Shown here in pieces: positions 25,502-60,367 of a stretch of DNA of 64,000 nt (position 1 is its first letter; each line of letters begins with the position of its first letter). The stretch is from Strigops habroptila (taxonomy: Eukaryota; Chordata; Aves; Psittaciformes; Psittacidae). Under the pieces are notes generated by a model that saw nothing but the letters and a program-made list of their open reading frames with translations, was not told the DNA's origin and ran no database searches. A program made the position numbers and the translations under genes. The DNA lies in assembly GCF_004027225.2 (NCBI RefSeq), contig NC_044296.2:4198796-4262795 (forward strand), given 5' to 3'.

Positions 25502-28500
25502 ATGGCGGCGGTGCTGTCCGCCGCCGCGCTGGAGCTGCTCCTGCTCCTCGGGGCTGCGCTGGGCTCTGCGGGGGCCACGGTGTATTTCCAGGAGCAGTTT
25601 CTGGATGGAGGTTGGGCGAGGGCACGGGGTTAAAGGGTGGAGGGGGCGGTGGGGCAGCTGCCGGTAATAACGGCTGTGAGTGTGTGAGCTGGTGGGGAGG
25701 GAGCTCCCTCCCCCTTCCCGCCCTGTGCTTACTGACCCTGCTTCTGTGTTGTTGCTGGTGCTGACTGCACGGGACAGCCAACTGGAGGAAGAGGTGGATG
25801 AATTCTGAGTACAAACCAGACTTTGGGAAGTTTAAGCTCACTGCAGGGAAGTTTTATGGACATCCAGTGTTAGATAAAGGTATTTGAGTTTCATTCAAAA
25901 TATGCTATGGGAGCCATCTCTAGAATCAAGGATATCATAGAATCCCAGACTGGTCTGGGTTGGGAGGGACCTTAAAGCTCATCCAGTTCCAGCCCCCTGC
26001 CATGGGCAGGGACACCTTCCACTAGAGCAGGTTGCTCCAAGCCCCTGTGTCCAACCTGGCCTTGAACACTGCCAGGGATGGGGCAGCCACAGCTTCTCTG
26101 GGCACCCTGTGCCAGCGCCTCAGCACCCTCACAGGGAAGAGCTTCTGCCTCAGAGCTCATCTCAATCTCCCCTCTGGCAGGTTAAAGCCATTCCCCTTGT
26201 CCTGTCCCTGCAGGACCTTGTCCAAACCCCTCTCCTGGCTTCCTGTAGCCCTTTTAGGCACTGGAGCTGCTCTAAGGTCTCCCCTTCAGGAGCCTTCTCT
26301 TCTCCAAGTTGAGCAGCCCCTTTCTATACATTTATATATTTGCCTTTATATATATAAAGGTGTGCCGTGCATGGCAATAGAAGTATTTTTTTCTTTGCAA
26401 ATGGAAAAAAATGTAAGTTTGACTCTTACACTATTATCTTTGCAGGTCTACAAACTAGTGAAAACTCTAAGTTTTATGCCATCTCATCACGATTTAAACC
26501 ATTTAGTAACAAAGGGAAGACTCTGGTCATTCAGTACACAGTGAAGCATGAGCAGAAGATAGATTGTGGTGGGGGGTATGTTAAGATTTTTCCCTCAAAC
26601 TTGGACCAGAAGAAGCTGAGTGGAGATTCACATTATTACATCATGTTTGGTGAGTTTATAGTTATTACTTCATTACTAAAATACTGTTACTGCTTTGTGC
26701 AGTTCTTCTAAAGATCGTTGTGGAAATGGAGGAAAAATTGTAGAGGAAGGCTGTCTTAAAAACATGAGGATATTGTGACTGTAAGGGGTTAGCTCTTCCA
26801 CGCTTGAGAGATCTCTAAATATGTATTAACAAAATACATATTAATGCAACCATTGGGAAACACATGTCTGCAAACCATGTGAGCTGATTTGAAGACATAA
26901 GTGAAAATGATTAGACTGAGTTTAGAATAAAAGTAGTCGTTCAGCAGGATTTAAGATCTTTAACTGAAACAACATCCTGCAGGCCATGATCTGCCCTTAT
27001 TTACTTTTATGTAGTTTCCAGTGACTTAGTGAAATTTGTACCTTTGTATGTCCAACTGAAGTTTGACATTATGGATCTAATATATAGTTATCCACCTTGT
27101 TCCATAGATAATCTTTATTTTGCCAGGATTTTTGTTTTCTGGGTTAGTTTTCTGTAACAGAACTAAACCCCAAACTACACAAAATCTAATTCCGAGGTAG
27201 ATTTACCTGGCTTTACCTGGTAGATTTACATGGTTTTGAGTAGAAGCCATGTCATTCCATTAAAAATTGAATGGAATACATCAAAATATGTGGGATGGGA
27301 GAGATGTCTAGCAGTATTAGAAGGAAAAGGGAAACAATCTGTATTTTCTTGCAAAGAAGTTAAGAATGCAAAGCATATGATCTCTTTATAGGGCCAGATA
27401 TTTGTGGATCTGATACAAAGAAAGTCCATGTTATTTTAAATTACAAGAATAAACCCCATCCAATCAAGAAACTGATCAGATGCAAGGTAAATACACATTT
27501 TAAAGGATATATAAACTTTAAAATAAACAAGTTACAGGGATATGAGGATGAGAAAACAAAAAGCAACTATTACAAACATGTAATACCTTTGAGTTTCATC
27601 ATCTCTTAAGTCATATTAATTTTGGGACTTCAGATATTTCTTAGTTGATGATATGTTTGCAATTTAATGATTGCATTTCTAATACCTGATACTGATACAG
27701 GATGCAACAGGGTTGCAAGGGTGCTGCATGTTATTAAGAATTGTATGTCACCATGTGTCTTACCTGTAACTTTAATTCCGTGTTTCCTAGTGAGAGAGCC
27801 CTTTCTTGTGGTATGTAGAGACTTTGGGAATGAAGTATTTTTTCTTACTACTCTTTATGAAAAATCCATTCGAAATTAGCAGTATAAGTCTGGTGTGAGG
27901 CAATTCCCAAGATCTGTATTTAAGGTTCTTAAGAAATGTTCTTTCTTTAAAAATTGCATTCTTTAAAACCCAGGTTGATGGCTATACCCATCTATATACT
28001 TTGATTATAAGGCCAGATCAGACTTACAAAGTAAAAATTGATAACGAAATGGTTGCATCTGGCAACTTAGAAGATGATTTAGATTTTTTGCCACCAAAGA
28101 AAATTAATGATCCAACAGTGAAGAAACCAAAGGACTGGGATGATCGAATCGAAATTGATGATCCAAACGATGTCAAACCTGAGGTAATTTGCTCTCCTTA
28201 TTCTGCATTGCTGGATGATTTCATTTCTACTGACTGCATGCTTGATATAGTTGAACTGTGCACTAGTTTTGCTTTCTTAATCTTTTTAAAGGATTGGGAT
28301 GAACCTGAATACATCATGGACATGAGTGCAGAGAAACCTGGAGATTGGGATGATGCTGCGAATGGAGAATGGCATTATCCTAGGGTCAAGAATCCTCTAT
28401 ACAGAGTATGAATAATTTTGTAATCCTAGCTACAGATAACACTTTAAGGAACTTTTATTTGCCTGACTGTATTGAGAACATGTGGTTTATCCTAGGGGGA

Positions 28501-37900: not shown

Positions 37901-40900
37901 TTTAACAGAAACCACTCATTTTTGTAGGGTTTCTATGTCGCATTGCGCCTTGTAGCATGTGCACAGAATGGCCATGATGTTAACCTGAGCAGTCTCAACT
38001 TGACTGTGCCACCTCCTAAATTTGTAAGTAATATGCACCTCAATGTATGTGTCTATTATAGGAGAACTAAGGCTTCAGTTGGAACACTGGAATAATCTTC
38101 TGTTTCATATATGTCAAACTGTTCCTTAAGACCAGGGCTGCCATAGTCCTGTCTTCTTGAGTAATACGTACCAGCCCCTTCCTGGACTGCAGAACTGCTG
38201 CGAGTTTAACTACAGTCAGCTTGCTCAGGAAGCTGGTGTGGCTAAACTCTACATTTATGAAAAAAGAAAAGGGGAGGAGGGGCAAGATTAATTTGGGGGT
38301 AGATCAACAGGAGTTTGTAGTAAAGGGCATGACGGCAGCTTTGCCTGCCGTAGCTGCTGTGCAACCTCCTTCAGCTTGCTTTAGTTCTGTGTTTGGTACC
38401 TAAGGCACCTAATGTCCTTATTGAAGTGCTGTAATAGCATAAATCAGTATGACGTATGTTTTTATTTAGGTATGTGTGCAGCTTTTTATTTCAGAGCAGT
38501 TCAGCTTCATATCTACAACCATCTCTTAAAGCAATCAGTGAGGATTAGAGACAGAAGTGTATTTTATATATATACACACATATAAATAAGAAATTCTTTG
38601 GTTTTTAGCACGACACTAGCAGTCCTTTGCTGATCACCCCACCTTCAACAGAAACTCACTGGGCTGTTAGGGTAAGTGTAAAAGACAACACATTCCATCC
38701 ATTCTTTAAAAGTAAATATTTTCTTTGCCTGTAATTTTCCCAGTGAGAGTATATTGTAGCAAATAAATTTCCCATTTCAGAAGTCCTCCCTTTCTGATGG
38801 CAGACTTTTGCACAATAGAGAATATTGAGCTGTAGTTTTATATGTGAAATAAGTATTAACTGAGCCTTTGAGAAGCCCTGGTGTGATGTTTTTAGGACAC
38901 AATGAATTTTAATCTTCTGCCTGGATTTCCTCTGGAATCCTACCGTAGACACTTTCATGTTTGTATAAAGGAACCCCACTGAGAACAGCAAAGCATTTCA
39001 CCAAATCCATCCTGAAGTATTCATTTAAAGCTTGAGTTCATATGTTCTAATTAGTAGTCAGTGATACACACAATGTATGTCATTGGAAAAAAGGAACTTT
39101 TGATACAAACATGGGGATATTTGTATTTAGTTAATTTTCAAATGCAAGCCATTTCCAAAAGGTAGAAATTTAATAAAATAACTTTTTTCCCTTTTCCCTT
39201 TTTTTCCCTTTTTTCCCTTTTTTTCCCCTTTTTTCCCTTTTTTCCCTTTTTTCCCTTTTTTCCCTTTTTTCCCTTTTTTCCCTTTTTTTCCCTTTTTTCC
39301 CTTTTTTCCCTTTTTTCCCTTTTTTCCCTTTTTTCCCTTTTTTCCCTTTTCCCTTTTTCCCTTTTTTCCCTTTTTTCCCTTTTTTCCCTTTTTCCCTTTT
39401 TCCCTTTTTTCCCTTTTTCCCTTTTTCCCCTTTTTCCCCTTTTTCCCCTTTTTCCCCTTTTTCCCCTTTTTCCCCTTTTTCCCCTTTTTCCCCTTTTTCC
39501 CTTTTCCCCTTTTTCCCCTTTTTCCCCTTTTTCCCCTTTTCCCCTTTTTCCCCTTTTTTCCCCTTTTTTCCCCTTTTTTCCCTTTTCCCCTTTTTCTCCC
39601 CTTTTCTCCCCTTTTCTCCCCTTTTCTCCCCTTTTCTCCCCTTTTCTCCCCTTTTCTCCCCTTTTCCCCCCTTTTCCCCCCTTTTCCCCCCTTTTCCCCC
39701 TTTTCCCCCCTTTTCCCCCCTTTTCCCCCCTTTTTCCCCCCTTTTTCCCCCCCTTTTTCCCCCCCTTTTTCCCCCCCTTTTTCCCCCCTTTTTCCCCCCC
39801 TTTTTCCCCCCCTTTTTCCCCCCTTTTTCCCCCCCTTTTTCCCCCCCTTTTTCCCCCCCTTTTTCCCCCCCTTTTTCCCCCCCTTTTCCCCCCCCTTTTT
39901 TTCCCCCCCTTTTTTCCCCCCCTTTTTTCCCCCCCTTTTTCCCCCCCTTTTCCCCCCCCTTTTTTCCCCCCGTTTTTTCCCCCCGTTTTTTCCCCCTGTT
40001 TTTTCCCCCCGTTTTTTCCCCCCGTTTTTCCCTTTTTGTTTTTTCCCTTTTTGTTTTTTCCCTTTTTGTTTTTTCCCTTTTTGTTTTTTCCCTTTTTGTT
40101 TTCTGTAGTTGCATGTTGCACTTTCAAGTGGGAAGCAAGCTATATGGGAAGAATAGTTTTTAGTTCTACAGAGTTTGTCAAAGTTTGTTTAAAATCTGGT
40201 CAGCAGTGTTTTAATCAGAATGCATTCTCCTTTTAGAACACTATAGAAACACATCTTCCGTGCTGCATGTTAAAATCTCTTAGCTATCATACCCTTAGTT
40301 TTGAAATCAAGCTCCTAAATCCAGCTCCATGGGTTTACATTTAAATACAGCATGGTGGCAGTTGCCAGAAAGCTCGGAAGTTTAGAGTGAATACTTTACT
40401 GACCAGTCTTAATTTCTTGCAAGATCTCATTTTCAACACTCACACAGGCACACTTTTTTACTTATTCAGGCTATTTCTTACCAACTAGGTGGAAGAAAAA
40501 GCAAAGTTTGATGGTATTTTTGAAAGCCTTTTGCCAGTAAATGGTTTACTTTCAGGAGACAAAGTAAAACCAGTACTGATGAATTCAAAGCTACCTCTTG
40601 ATATCCTAGGAAGGGTAAGTATGCTGTTTAGATTTAGCTATTCTCTATTTAGCTTTTTGTAGTTGCAATGTTAAATATTTAAATGTAACTTGCCAACATG
40701 GATCAGGTTTTGGCTGAGGTATTACCTTGAGTGCATGCTATAAGACAAGAACAATAAGTAGGTTCTGAAGTCTTCCACTTAGAAATAGTAATAATAGCAT
40801 CAATTTGGTCCCTGGAGTAGGTTGGCTTCATTATCTTTGTATTCATTTTAAGAGCTGGAAATTTTTACTTAGGTTGTTTCAAAACAAGAAAAAGCTCTCC

Positions 40901-43900: not shown

Positions 43901-46900
43901 TGGGCTATATGGAAAAATAAGGGAGAAATTAATTCTCACTTTGCTTTTCTGGGAGGGGGGTATAGTCTGTGAACTGTGGTTGGTTTTTTTAAGTTCTAGG
44001 GCTCTAAATAGTTTCTCAGGGTAACGCTGTTCTATTCGGTTAATATATGGCTAATAAAATACTGCTCTGTTTATGGAACTCTTTCACTAGAATAAGCAAG
44101 CTCTGATGGAGCTGAATCAAAAGGAAATTACAGGTATATGTGTATTTCAGGCTTCTTGGTAGAGGAGAAATAAGCTTTTCTTGTTTATAAGTATGATCTA
44201 TTTTTTACCAGGGCTTTGGCAGACACAAGACAGATGGGAAAGCTGAGCAAAGATCAGTTTGCACTAGCAATGTATCTCATCCAACAGAAGGTCAGTAAAG
44301 GGATTGATCCTCCACAAGTGTTGTCTCCAGAGATGATCCCTCCCTCAGAGAGGAACACTCCCATACAGGCAAGTCATTGATTATTTGTAGATAATACTGA
44401 GCTTTTGTGCTTTGAAAGTAATGAGCTTCGAGGTTTTTGTAGTATTATAGTCAAAATTGCCTTTTTCTTTCCCCTTATCTCCTCTTGCAAAATTCTTTAA
44501 CATTTGAAAATGTACATAAATTTTTTAACAACACAAGACAGTAAGTAAAGAAAAATGCAGTAGAATATTCTATAAATAAAGGAATCATGGGAAATACTCC
44601 TTTGTTATAGAGAAGGGTTGGGGTTTTTTAACTTCAGGGAACTGTTAAAAGCTGGTTTAGTAGCCTGTCCCCTCCTGTAAAATGTAAAATTAAATGGCTA
44701 CATGAAGAGTGGTGACTTCCTAGTTTCTGGGAATTGGTGGTTGATTCATTCCTTGTAGCAGGATGGTCTGTAGTCCTATGTCCTTCACTGTTAATACCAT
44801 TTTACTGGAGCATCTAATCTTTTACTAACCCCTGCTTTATTCCTTTCCTCAATAGTGTGTTAGTGTATTTCTGAAGCTTAAATGAATAAATCATAGAATC
44901 ATAGAATGGTTTGGGTTGGAAAGGACCTTAAGCTCATCCAGTTCCAACCCCTGCCATGGGCAGGGACACCTTCCACTAGAGCAGGTTGCTCCAAGCCCCT
45001 GTGTCCAACCTGGCCTTGAACACTGCCAGGGATGGGGCAGCCACAGCTTCTCTGGGCACCCTGTGCCAGTGCCTTACCACTCTCACAGTAAAGAATTTCT
45101 TCCTTATGCCTAACCTAAATCTCCCCTTTTTAAGTTTGAACCCATTAGCCCTTGTTCTTCTTCTGTCATGTCAATATATTCATCTTTTCTATAAATTATA
45201 TAGTATTTTCCTTTTTCTGCTTTCCCTAACCAGAAAGCTTTGGAGCCTCTAAATATATTTTAATGATTGCTGTTGCTCTGGTCCTTTTTGTGGTTTTTCC
45301 TGTATCCTTTTTCTACAGACTCTGTCAGGTTACTTGACCTCTGTAGGGACTGAGATCTCAACACTAACAGAAATGCGTCGTGTGAGTAATTGTAACGTCC
45401 AAAAGAATGCAAATTGGTTTATGTACACTACTTGTAACTTTAAAAAAGGTCTTATTTCTACTCCTCCTGTCTCTTTGCTCATGTGTTCTGTGCCACTTGC
45501 TCTTGGCATGACAATAGTACCACAGTAGTGTGACGTTCCCAGTGTTGGCTGTTGAGCTGGTGATACTGCTTCCTTCAACAATTTGGGATGCATTGGTCTG
45601 TCAAGAAGTTTTCAGTGTTAGCATGTTAAAGCTACTCATGTACTAGTTCCCTGAAGCTGTGGGCAGTAAATATACCTTGGTGTGAGAGCTTTAAGCTTTC
45701 CATTATTTTCAGTTCTCTGTATTTTTTTTTCCCCATCTACTGTGGTTTTAGCTGAATATAATGTGGAATAAACTGTATGCTACTGTGAACATAGCAGATC
45801 AGTTTTCTGTTCCTGTGGAGCAATGAATTGTGTTATCCTAACCAATGCAGCAGCTCATTTTAACTTATTTCATAATCATATTGGGTAACACCTTATCATC
45901 CTGCACAGCAGATAGCAGAGATCTCTCAGCAAATCAGTATCTGGTCTGAAAATGTAAAAGTGATACTAGAAGCTTTTGATTTGCCAGCTTGAATAATTAG
46001 TCTGGATTGGTGGTGTTATTTAGGATTACTTAGTGGCATAGTAAGAAATACTCACCCAAAAGTGAGGACTTAATTAACTTAAGCTGTATATTCACCTGTT
46101 TTTTCTGCAAAACAATCACATTTTACTGTGCTGTTTGTGGTTTGTTGATTGGGTTCTTGGGGTTTTTTGTAGTGAATAAAGCCAAACTTTCTGTGCTTAT
46201 CACAGCCTCAGAGTGAACAAAGCAAGCAAACTGTACTTGCTCCTTTCTAAAATGCTATTTAAAACTGGTAGGTCTCCTGATTTGTCATACTGGCAGCGAG
46301 CTCAGTGGTGCAGGTTTTGCTCCATTGCAGTGGTTTTTTTCTTTAAAAGAACTAGCAATCCTTTCTATAATAATGACAAATTTTGTACCAAATGCTGAGA
46401 TCTTCTCTTAATAACTTCTAATGACAACTTTCTTGTCTAAAAGTCAAGTGATACCCTCTGTGTCTTGCCTGATCCACACCTGAATGGCTGTAGAAATGAC
46501 CTGCAGGAAATTGGGTATACGTGCAGAAATTGGCTTTAATTTGTGGCAGGGCTGAAGAAGATCGTAATTTCAATCTGATTTTGTTCAGTTCCCTGGAAGC
46601 TTTGCTATTGACTATAGCAGAGCTGGGGTTTTTTGGGTTTGAATTTTAATTCTACTATTGCCTGCAGTTTATTCATTGACATTGTGCATGTCCTTTCACT
46701 GCTGTGTGTTTCAACTGTCCCATCTGTTATATGGACATGGAGAATATTCTTCTGTCTCACAGGTAGACCTGTGTGATGTGCTCAGTGCTTGTTGCGTAAT
46801 AATTTGTTGTCTCCCATAGAATTTTGCAGATGCATATAATGAGGATTGTGTCCCACCTTTGTCCTCAGCTTTTGTAAAGGCAAATCTTCGTAAGAACTTG

Positions 46901-49900
46901 GCGTTTTAATAGACTATTTCATTCTTAACAGGATAGTTCAAGTTCCGTTGGATCAGGCGAATTTACAGGGGTGAAGGAACTGGATGATATTAGTCAAGAA
47001 ATTGCACAGCTACAGAGGTAATGGTTGTGGACTATTAAAAGAATGGTGGAGTAGGAGAAACATAGAATCATAGAATGGTTTGGGTTGGAAAGGTCCTTAA
47101 GATCGCCAACCCCGCTGCCATGGGCAGGGATGCCTCACACTAGACCATGTCGCACAAGGCTCTGTCCAGCCTGGCCTTGGACACAGCAAGGGATGGAGCA
47201 TTTACCACTTCTTTGGGCAACCTGTTCCAGTGTCTCACCACAGTAAAGAATTTCTTCCTTATATCCAACCTGAACTTCCCCCGTTTCAGTTTGAACCCAT
47301 CATGCCTTGTCCTATCACTCCAGTCCCTGATGAAGGTCCCTCCCCAGCATCCTTGTAGCCCCCTTCAGACACTGGAAGCTGCTCTGAGGTCTCCACGCAG
47401 CTTCTCTTCTCCAGGCTGAACAGCCCCAATGTTCTCAGCCTGTCTTCGTGTGGGAGCTGCTCCAGCGCCTGATCATCCTCGTGGCCTCCTCTGGACTTGT
47501 TCCAACAACTCCATGTTCTTCTTACAGTCCTGATGTGTTCATTACTTTTGTTCTCTTTTAGTCAGTTTGTCATTACTTGTCACTGAAGTTGGTGGCAAAT
47601 CTCCCACTGGTACCTTATAGTTAGCTATTTGTGTAAAGCCAGTCTGGATTCTACCAGGTGGCTTCAGAACAGATAGTCTTTTTCAAAGCATAATTGATTT
47701 GAATACACCTTTACTCACTTAAAGGATATATCAGAATATGGGCTGGCATTTTTGGCTGTGTGGTGTTTCCAGAGTAATATTTAATTGATGTTTGCATGTG
47801 CACGTGTGTGTTGCAGTATTTAACTGATCATGGATGCATGTGCTTGTTTATCTTACAGAGAAAAATACTCACTAGAGCAGGACATTAGGGAAAAAGAAGA
47901 ATCAATCAGACAGAAAACCAATGAAGTCCAGGTAAAAACTCAGGATATCATTATTATTTTTCATTTTAATCTAAAATAAGATACAGGAAGTTAAGCATTC
48001 TTTCTTCCATATTGCCTTATGTTGCTTCTGGGCAAGTCTTTCCTTCTTTCTTGAGATTCTCCTTTAACTCACAGAAAAATCCTTACTTTCCCGATCTCCA
48101 TTAGAAATGTTTTCTTCAGATGTTGGTTAATATAAACAGGAGATGTTACATGAACAGTTTGAAATGTCTTTTTTGTTAGCGCTTGACTAACACTAATTTA
48201 GGAAATCATTGTTCAAAGAGTATTGGGTTTTATAATTAGGATAGTTCCATTACATGTGCTCTGTGTCACAGTCTCTCTTCCATCTTGTGAGCACTGATTT
48301 GTTTCTTGCTGTCTCATAAAAGTTCCTGCAGAAACAAAACATACACATGCAGGGAATAACCTATATGACATAGAAAATCTTCTACATTTTGCTAGCCTGT
48401 TTGTGTGTGGTTGAGCATTCCTCTAGAACAGCTAAATATAAGTTACAAACTGGAATTTTCCTCAGGAACTCCAAAATGATTTAGATAGGGAGACAAGTAA
48501 CTTGCAAGAGCTGGAGGCTCAGAAACAAGATGCTCAAGACCGCCTGGATGAAATGGACCAGCAGAAAGCCAAACTAAAAGATATGCTGAACGATGTAAGG
48601 CAGAAATGCCAGGAAGAAACACAGGTGGTGAGTGTACGTTAATTCTGGACATGCTCAAGAGTACTGTGTCTTTCGTTGAAGGAAATTCTGTTTATTTAGT
48701 GAATAACCTTGCTTTGTTTCTTCATTTTTACCATAAATGGCCATTTCCACACTAATACAGAGGTCCAAGAAAGGATTTTGCTAACCTAAATACCTTTTAT
48801 AATGGTCATAAATGGGGGGTTGAATCAGATGATTTCCAGGGGTCCCCTTCTACATAAAGGATTATTGTTCTGTGAATATATGAAACATTTATTCAACCTA
48901 ATAGGGTAGCTGAGAAGCATTATTGCTGACCTCTGGGACAGTCCATGGGCAGTGGTGCATATTTTGATCACTGTGAACCTCGTCAGTGTTCTAAAAGTGG
49001 GTTTTCAGGGGGATACAATTGCCATTGTAGCTAGCCTGTTTTCTTAATGTAGAAATTTGGTGTATAAGGTCATGTAAGAAAGTATAAAAGGAAAATCATA
49101 CACAACTGAGTAATTTTAACTCATATTATCAGAGTTAAAAATCACCTTTATAATACTTCGTAAATGTTTGAATGGAAAAGGAGCTAAGTTCTGAAAACTA
49201 CAAAGTAACCATCTAAGAAACACCTTTTAATTACCTTTGTAATCAGTGTGGTATTTCTTTGATTTAAAATATTAGTATTTCTTGCTGTTATTGAATGTCC
49301 TATGTGCTTTTATCAAGGATTTTGTGTAACATTGTAAGAAGCATGCAGTTTTTCATATTAAGTTCTTGTTACCTTCCTTAGCAGTTGATAGGTTGCTTTA
49401 CAAGTGTCTATTTGTTATAAAATCATGATTTACTGAGTTACATTTCTTTCAAATTTCACTCTGATTTTTGTAACGCTTTGTTTCAGATTTCATCACTAAA
49501 AATGCAGATTCAATCTCAGGAATCAGATTTAAAATTACAGGAAGATGACCTTAATAGAGCAAAAGCAGAGCTGAATCGCCTCCAGCAAGAAGAGACTCAG
49601 CTAGAGCAGAGTATCCAGGCTGGAAAAGTGCAGCTTGAAACAATAATCAAATCTTTAAAATCAACACAGGAAGAAATAAACCAGGTATTCACTGTAGTTT
49701 ATACTTCTTTTTTGCTTCTTGAAAGGTTAAGAATTGAGCATCACCTAGAAAGATTATGAAGAAAAATACTGGTTCATGAAATAAGCCTGTTTAGTGCTCA
49801 GTAGGTTAATTTGCAGTTTGAGTCAGGAAAAGTTCAGCTCTGGGGGAGGAGGGAAATGCAAGTGTCTGGCAACCAGGTTTAACAAGAATGTGAGAATGAC

Positions 49901-60324: not shown

Positions 60325-60367
60325 TTTTTTTTTTTTTCCTTCTTTTTTTTTCTTTTTTTTTTTTTTT
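60325..60367 (+). repeat. T-rich run
   Basis: About 43 bases of T broken by a few C, in EPS15L1 intron 22. It could be the reverse-complemented tail of an unrecognised insertion, but no element body was recognised next to it. Confidence 0.7.

Follow-up and report, generated by a model that had tools for sequence, protein, structure and literature searches.

A tandem array of T and C fills 921 bp (39182-40102, forward strand), or 51%, of one intron of a gene that is probably EPS15L1 in the window, the whole 64-kb stretch of Strigops habroptila DNA analysed here. The array is likely to be an intronic polypyrimidine minisatellite that arose from local slippage and run-length change, without a demonstrated function. 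It is a new, tidy example of an already known kind of element, and its most likely consequence, as we infer it, is physical, through the DNA structures that it may adopt.

A segmented polypyrimidine array

The host intron, the exon that follows it and the seven blocks into which the array divides are listed below; the block limits were placed by eye.

38672..40488, forward strand: host intron of the EPS15L1-like gene, 1,817 bp, defined by exon frames and GT/AG borders
39183..39421, forward strand: block 1, modal unit T6C3 (9 bp), 34% C
39422..39590, forward strand: block 2, modal unit T5C4 (9 bp), 44% C
39591..39661, forward strand: block 3, modal unit T4CTC4 (10 bp), 49% C
39662..39730, forward strand: block 4, modal unit T4C6 (10 bp), 59% C
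39731..39971, forward strand: block 5, modal unit T5C7 (12 bp), 57% C
39972..40024, forward strand: block 6, unit GT6C6 (13 bp)
40025..40102, forward strand: block 7, 15-bp unit TTTTTCCCTTTTTGT, 5.2 copies with 100% matches in Tandem Repeats Finder
40489..40614, forward strand: next coding exon, start of the second EH domain, with the donor AGG|GTAAGT at 40615

The array contains 502 T, 409 C, 10 G and no A. Its first G stands at 39972, leaving an uninterrupted C/T run of 790 bp (39182-39971, forward strand), which agrees with the roughly 800 bases of pure C/T reported in the initial annotation. No other stretch of pyrimidines or purines alone in the 64-kb window exceeds 43 bp, the length of a pyrimidine run at 60325-60367 that is mainly T.

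Across the array, Tandem Repeats Finder returns overlapping rows with periods of 9, 10, 12 and 15. The left-to-right succession of units that had been read by eye (T6C3, T5C4, T4CTC4, T4C6, T5C7, GT6C6 and a 15-bp unit) is correct, each step being a modal unit accompanied by jitter. The modal unit accounts for 18/27, 12/19, 6/7, 6/7 and 11/20 of the units in blocks 1 to 5, which form the pure part, and jitter is present in every block except the 15-bp block. Head-to-tail copies of 9-15 bp, locally homogenised, are the arrangement of a minisatellite. A comparison of two exact 36-bp array patterns with viral contigs gave 0 matches for each.

Order of the units and models of growth

Identical units stand next to each other far more often than expected. 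In the pure part (80 units), 40 of the 79 neighbouring pairs are identical, against a mean of 8.6 and a maximum of 19 in 10,000 shuffles, so the segmentation into blocks is not due to chance. C-run length in this part has a lag-1 autocorrelation of 0.93 and rises with position (rho 0.92). Over all 89 units, the G-bearing ones included, rho is only 0.69, because the C run shrinks to 5-6 and then to 3 at the right edge. The profile of the whole array is thus a lopsided tent, short at both ends, and given this shape the array is no clean time line. The change of unit is not one-directional, since towards the right end runs of 7-8 C give way to runs of 5-6 and finally of 3. Higher-order repeats that combine several units were considered and rejected: the longest mixed repeated word spans five units, within-block shuffles average 5.06 with 69% of 300 reaching five, and repeated words are no commoner than in those shuffles.

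The order also bears on whether the array is an assembly or consensus artefact, the real tract being shorter or different and its run lengths set by long-read homopolymer error. Array length and order come from one assembly, tracts of this kind are difficult to sequence, and PMC12954441 describes low sequencing quality and some technical variation in repetitive chicken introns. We nevertheless regard an artefact as very unlikely, as independent homopolymer error would be expected to leave scattered jitter rather than ordered blocks with common unit types.

Growth was simulated for arrays of 80 units, and a run was scored as a match when neighbour identity, autocorrelation and range agreed jointly with the array. 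Single-unit turnover matched in 0-10% of 60 shorter runs at six settings and in 1 to 32 of 100 longer runs at five settings. Since the limits for a match were set with the array already known, and polar growth (below) was modelled in a way that favours it, all the simulation figures given here serve as plausibility checks and not as tests. In these models, segmentation is an ordinary outcome of one-at-a-time slippage. Ordered successive expansions are therefore not required for the blocks, since single-unit turnover yields them. Of the earlier view, local expansion in segmented blocks is upheld, while the data do not call for a spatial record of successive expansions in place of one satellite.

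Three other modes of growth were rejected. Turnover of three units at a time gave no joint match (six settings, 60 runs each). Burst models gave none either (8 settings, 300 runs each), and reached |rho| >= 0.85 in 0.3% of runs at two settings. Block duplication and deletion, run at 15 settings with unfinished runs dropped (130-284 finished of 300 started each), never reached |rho| 0.8.

What counts against plain turnover is the trend within the pure part (rho 0.92), which is rare in turnover simulations: a match together with |rho| >= 0.85 appeared in 0-3 of 100 runs. Polar growth, in which extension occurs mostly at one edge and the unit order is a time record, matched in 0-41% of 300 runs across 12 settings, and up to 12% of 300 runs also had |rho| >= 0.85, although extra mutation at the growing end gave this model an advantage. 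In the simulations, the C-run trend mildly favours such edge growth, and the rightmost 15-bp block is 100% uniform. On the other hand, C-run length returns to low values at the right end, lowering rho over the 89 units, and block purity shows no steady left-to-right rise. Polar growth is accordingly an unlikely account of the array as a whole.

Slippage within one minisatellite may have proceeded as follows. A T6C3-like stretch would have been multiplied by slippage or short-tract conversion, mainly of single units, while T and C runs were altered by one base at a time. Adjoining units would thereby remain alike and distant ones drift apart, hence the blocks. The right-hand block may have taken up TTTTTG, which is similar to the flank. 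Origin as a retroelement tail was also considered and set aside, although an old element is conceivable: when both flanks of the intron were compared with the window by BLASTN (default low-complexity filter, E up to 1), each flank matched itself and the other hits were three of 13 bp at E 0.85.

Predicted DNA structures

The G-rich purine strand serves as the gene's template. On it, the pattern of G runs of at least three with loops of 1-7 forms a single unbroken run of 808 bp (39189-39996). Averaged per 50 bp, G4Hunter values climb from about 1.0 in T6C3 to a level of 2.4 within the C-rich middle, then drop, reaching 0.46 at the right edge.

From every block, one purine-strand stretch of 52-78 nt was folded under DNA parameters, G4 formation being permitted. 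The energies, which are not directly comparable as stretch lengths and G4 numbers differ, are -2.7 kcal/mol for T6C3, -46.4 for T5C4, -20.7 for T4CTC4, -56.0 for T4C6, -77.2 for T5C7, -35.5 for GT6C6 and 0 for the 15-bp block, with shuffle means of 0 to -23.7 kcal/mol (30 shuffles). The lowest of the seven belongs to 39824-39883 (block 5, T5C7) on the minus strand. G4 formation on the template strand is thus predicted in six of the seven stretches: in those with C runs of at least four, weakly for T6C3, and in none for the 15-bp block.

Perfect mirror repeats with arms of at least 20 are centred at 32 points of the array, the longest arm being 38, and the window beyond 39101-40200 has no such centre. 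From this symmetry H-DNA is plausible. The earlier suggestion that both structures are plausible is thereby supported, at the level of sequence, by mirror arms and predicted G4 folds, with the reservation that T6C3 is weak and the 15-bp block gives no G4. G-quadruplexes on the purine strand in the C-rich middle, together with H-DNA in the mirror-symmetric duplex, could stall polymerases and make the length of the array unstable.

Such stalling also enters a more speculative proposal, in which the array is a readable history: growth was directed to the end, every expansion fixed a C run slightly longer than the one before, and G4 stalling perhaps favoured longer G runs until growth stopped. We hold this to be distinctly unlikely; if it were true, the expansions would be datable from the order of the units. 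The interest lies in ordered-variant arrays as a way to test the interplay of slippage, conversion and non-B DNA structure over time, and the array would become a clean natural case if population reads locate length changes.

A strong acceptor-like sequence without a nearby adenosine

Two features that flank or end the array resemble splicing signals.

39170..39182, forward strand: branch-point-like TTAAT (A at 39173) and TAAC (A at 39181), 936 and 928 nt before 40109
40099..40108, forward strand: ttttctgtag, a high-scoring acceptor-like sequence whose nearest upstream A is at 39181

The second had been assigned to 40103-40108 and described as a near-ideal 3' splice site; it lies at 40099-40108, and the description is apt for the strong tract and AG but not for the distance to the nearest upstream A. 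Scored with splice-site position frequencies, the AG at 40107-40108 reaches 13.45, which ranks 11th among 4,420 AG sites of the forward strand and exceeds all five inferred native acceptors that were scored (3.58-9.81). The native acceptor of the EH exon at 40488 has a modest score of 4.4 (531st of the 4,420 AG sites). Eight YTNAY candidates lie in the 108 nt that precede it, including ones 25, 29 and 47 nt away.

The array could be a splicing element: a cryptic acceptor at 40108 that works with a branch point very far upstream, or a decoy of the PTB type. The score agrees with this, as do the sequences TTAAT and TAAC, which adjoin the left edge of the array and lead directly into the tract, and an AG-free zone of 941 nt (39165-40106), the next largest such gap on the forward strand of the window being 118 nt. 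In form, this zone is like the AG exclusion zones that PMC1431707 describes for exons whose branch points lie far away.

Distance is the main difficulty. From 39181 the sequence runs without an A to that of the AG at 40107, which puts the nearest upstream A at a distance of 926 nt. According to PMC10638238, branch points are mostly A and lie largely 10-60 nt from the exon, with C and G branch points in some introns. Mapped distant branch points lie 100-400 nt away, and one intron has predicted candidates at -1079 and -829 (both from PMC1431707). No adenosine branch point is thus available to 40108 within the mapped range of up to about 400 nt. Furthermore, the native donor at 40615 scores 10.27, and from 40109 up to it no donor exceeds 5 bits; a hypothetical exon spanning this interval would contain 3, 10 or 12 stops, depending on the frame. 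Use of the acceptor at 40108 is unlikely. That a branch point at the left edge reaches it across the 941-nt AG-free zone is conceivable, and less likely than that the units preserve a readable history.

PTBP1 is reported to bind YUCUYY and YYUCUY (PMC6224606), and the array is a poor PTB array because these motifs are depleted. Each occurs 7 times against a shuffle mean of 117.3, and UCUU (0 against 66.1), CUCUCU (0 against 12.8) and UUCU (7 against 66.2) are depleted as well. In excess over the shuffle means are CUUU (84 against 65.8), UUUUUCC (68 against 8.4) and CCC (223 against 79.8). The initial proposal of a PTB-type target is not supported by the counts of UCUU, YUCUYY and YYUCUY, all below the shuffles. 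C and U runs would be better suited to poly(C)-binding or U-run-binding proteins. Weighed against its strong acceptor score and long AG-free zone, these depletions, the distance to the nearest A and the make-up of the would-be exon leave a splicing role for the array highly improbable. A strong acceptor-like site with its nearest adenosine 926 nt away is, all the same, a natural test of branch-point reach.

Comparison with known intronic repeats

In human PKD1 intron 21, the pyrimidines of a long tract lie on the coding strand, and here too the coding strand carries 790 bp of pure C/T within a 1,817-bp intron. This is the closest system among those compared: there, too, an intron contains a long polypyrimidine tract, in which many G4 motifs and sequences able to form H-DNA occur (PMC11696556). 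Of the G4, H-DNA and replication block of the PKD1 type, the array offers G4 and H-DNA as predictions from its sequence. The two differ in scale and order: the PKD1 tract measures about 2-2.5 kb and an 88-nt repeat has been studied in it, whereas the array spans 0.92 kb in units of 9-15 bp with ordered block changes and 790 bp unbroken.

Introns of chicken contain large local repeat expansions with length polymorphism: on dot chromosomes 86% of the introns vary in length, as against 18% of those on the remaining microchromosomes and 11% of those on macrochromosomes (PMC12954441, 2026). The intron stuttering of dot chromosomes described there resembles the array in its local tandem expansion, in filling much of the intron and in leaving exons intact. 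The repeats in stuttering introns measure from tens to hundreds of bases and show less organisation, in contrast to the regular units of 9-15 bp found here.

The GAA/TTC repeat of FXN is like the array an expandable purine/pyrimidine repeat within an intron, but it is a trinucleotide with a uniform unit. It forms triplexes. The lncRNA PNCTR is similarly a long pyrimidine repeat RNA and binds PTBP1 (PMC6224606); it is rich in YUCUYY and YYUCUY, of which the array is depleted. Among the matches listed, the literature held no report of EPS15L1 with an intronic polypyrimidine tandem repeat.

Host gene and window

The exon upstream of the host intron ends in ...THWAVR. For the exon downstream (40489-40614), a PDB sequence search at E 0.001 found 13 distinct sequences in total, headed by three chains of EPS15 with E about 3e-17. 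Pfam matches for six peptides of the window comprise EH (three, one of which falls under the curated cut-off), calreticulin, Surp and TPT. The EH and EPS15 matches fit the gene call of the initial annotation and indicate that the host gene is probably a member of the EPS15 family, EPS15L1; the choice of this paralogue over EPS15 is an assumption based on the paralogues and on the human gene neighbourhood. The window runs from a TPT-family transporter through a Surp-domain gene (CHERP-like) and a calreticulin-family gene to the EPS15L1-like gene. This order fits the human order at 19p13.11, SLC35E1-CHERP-C19orf44-CALR3-EPS15L1. A further coding exon should lie between the first exon and 36714, but a word search did not find it.

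GC content is 33-52% in 59 of the 64 one-kb bins of the window. Three open frames, at 26026-26544, 44980-45252 and 47144-47419, share an 11-residue string or a close variant of it, pointing to copies of one interspersed repeat within the window.
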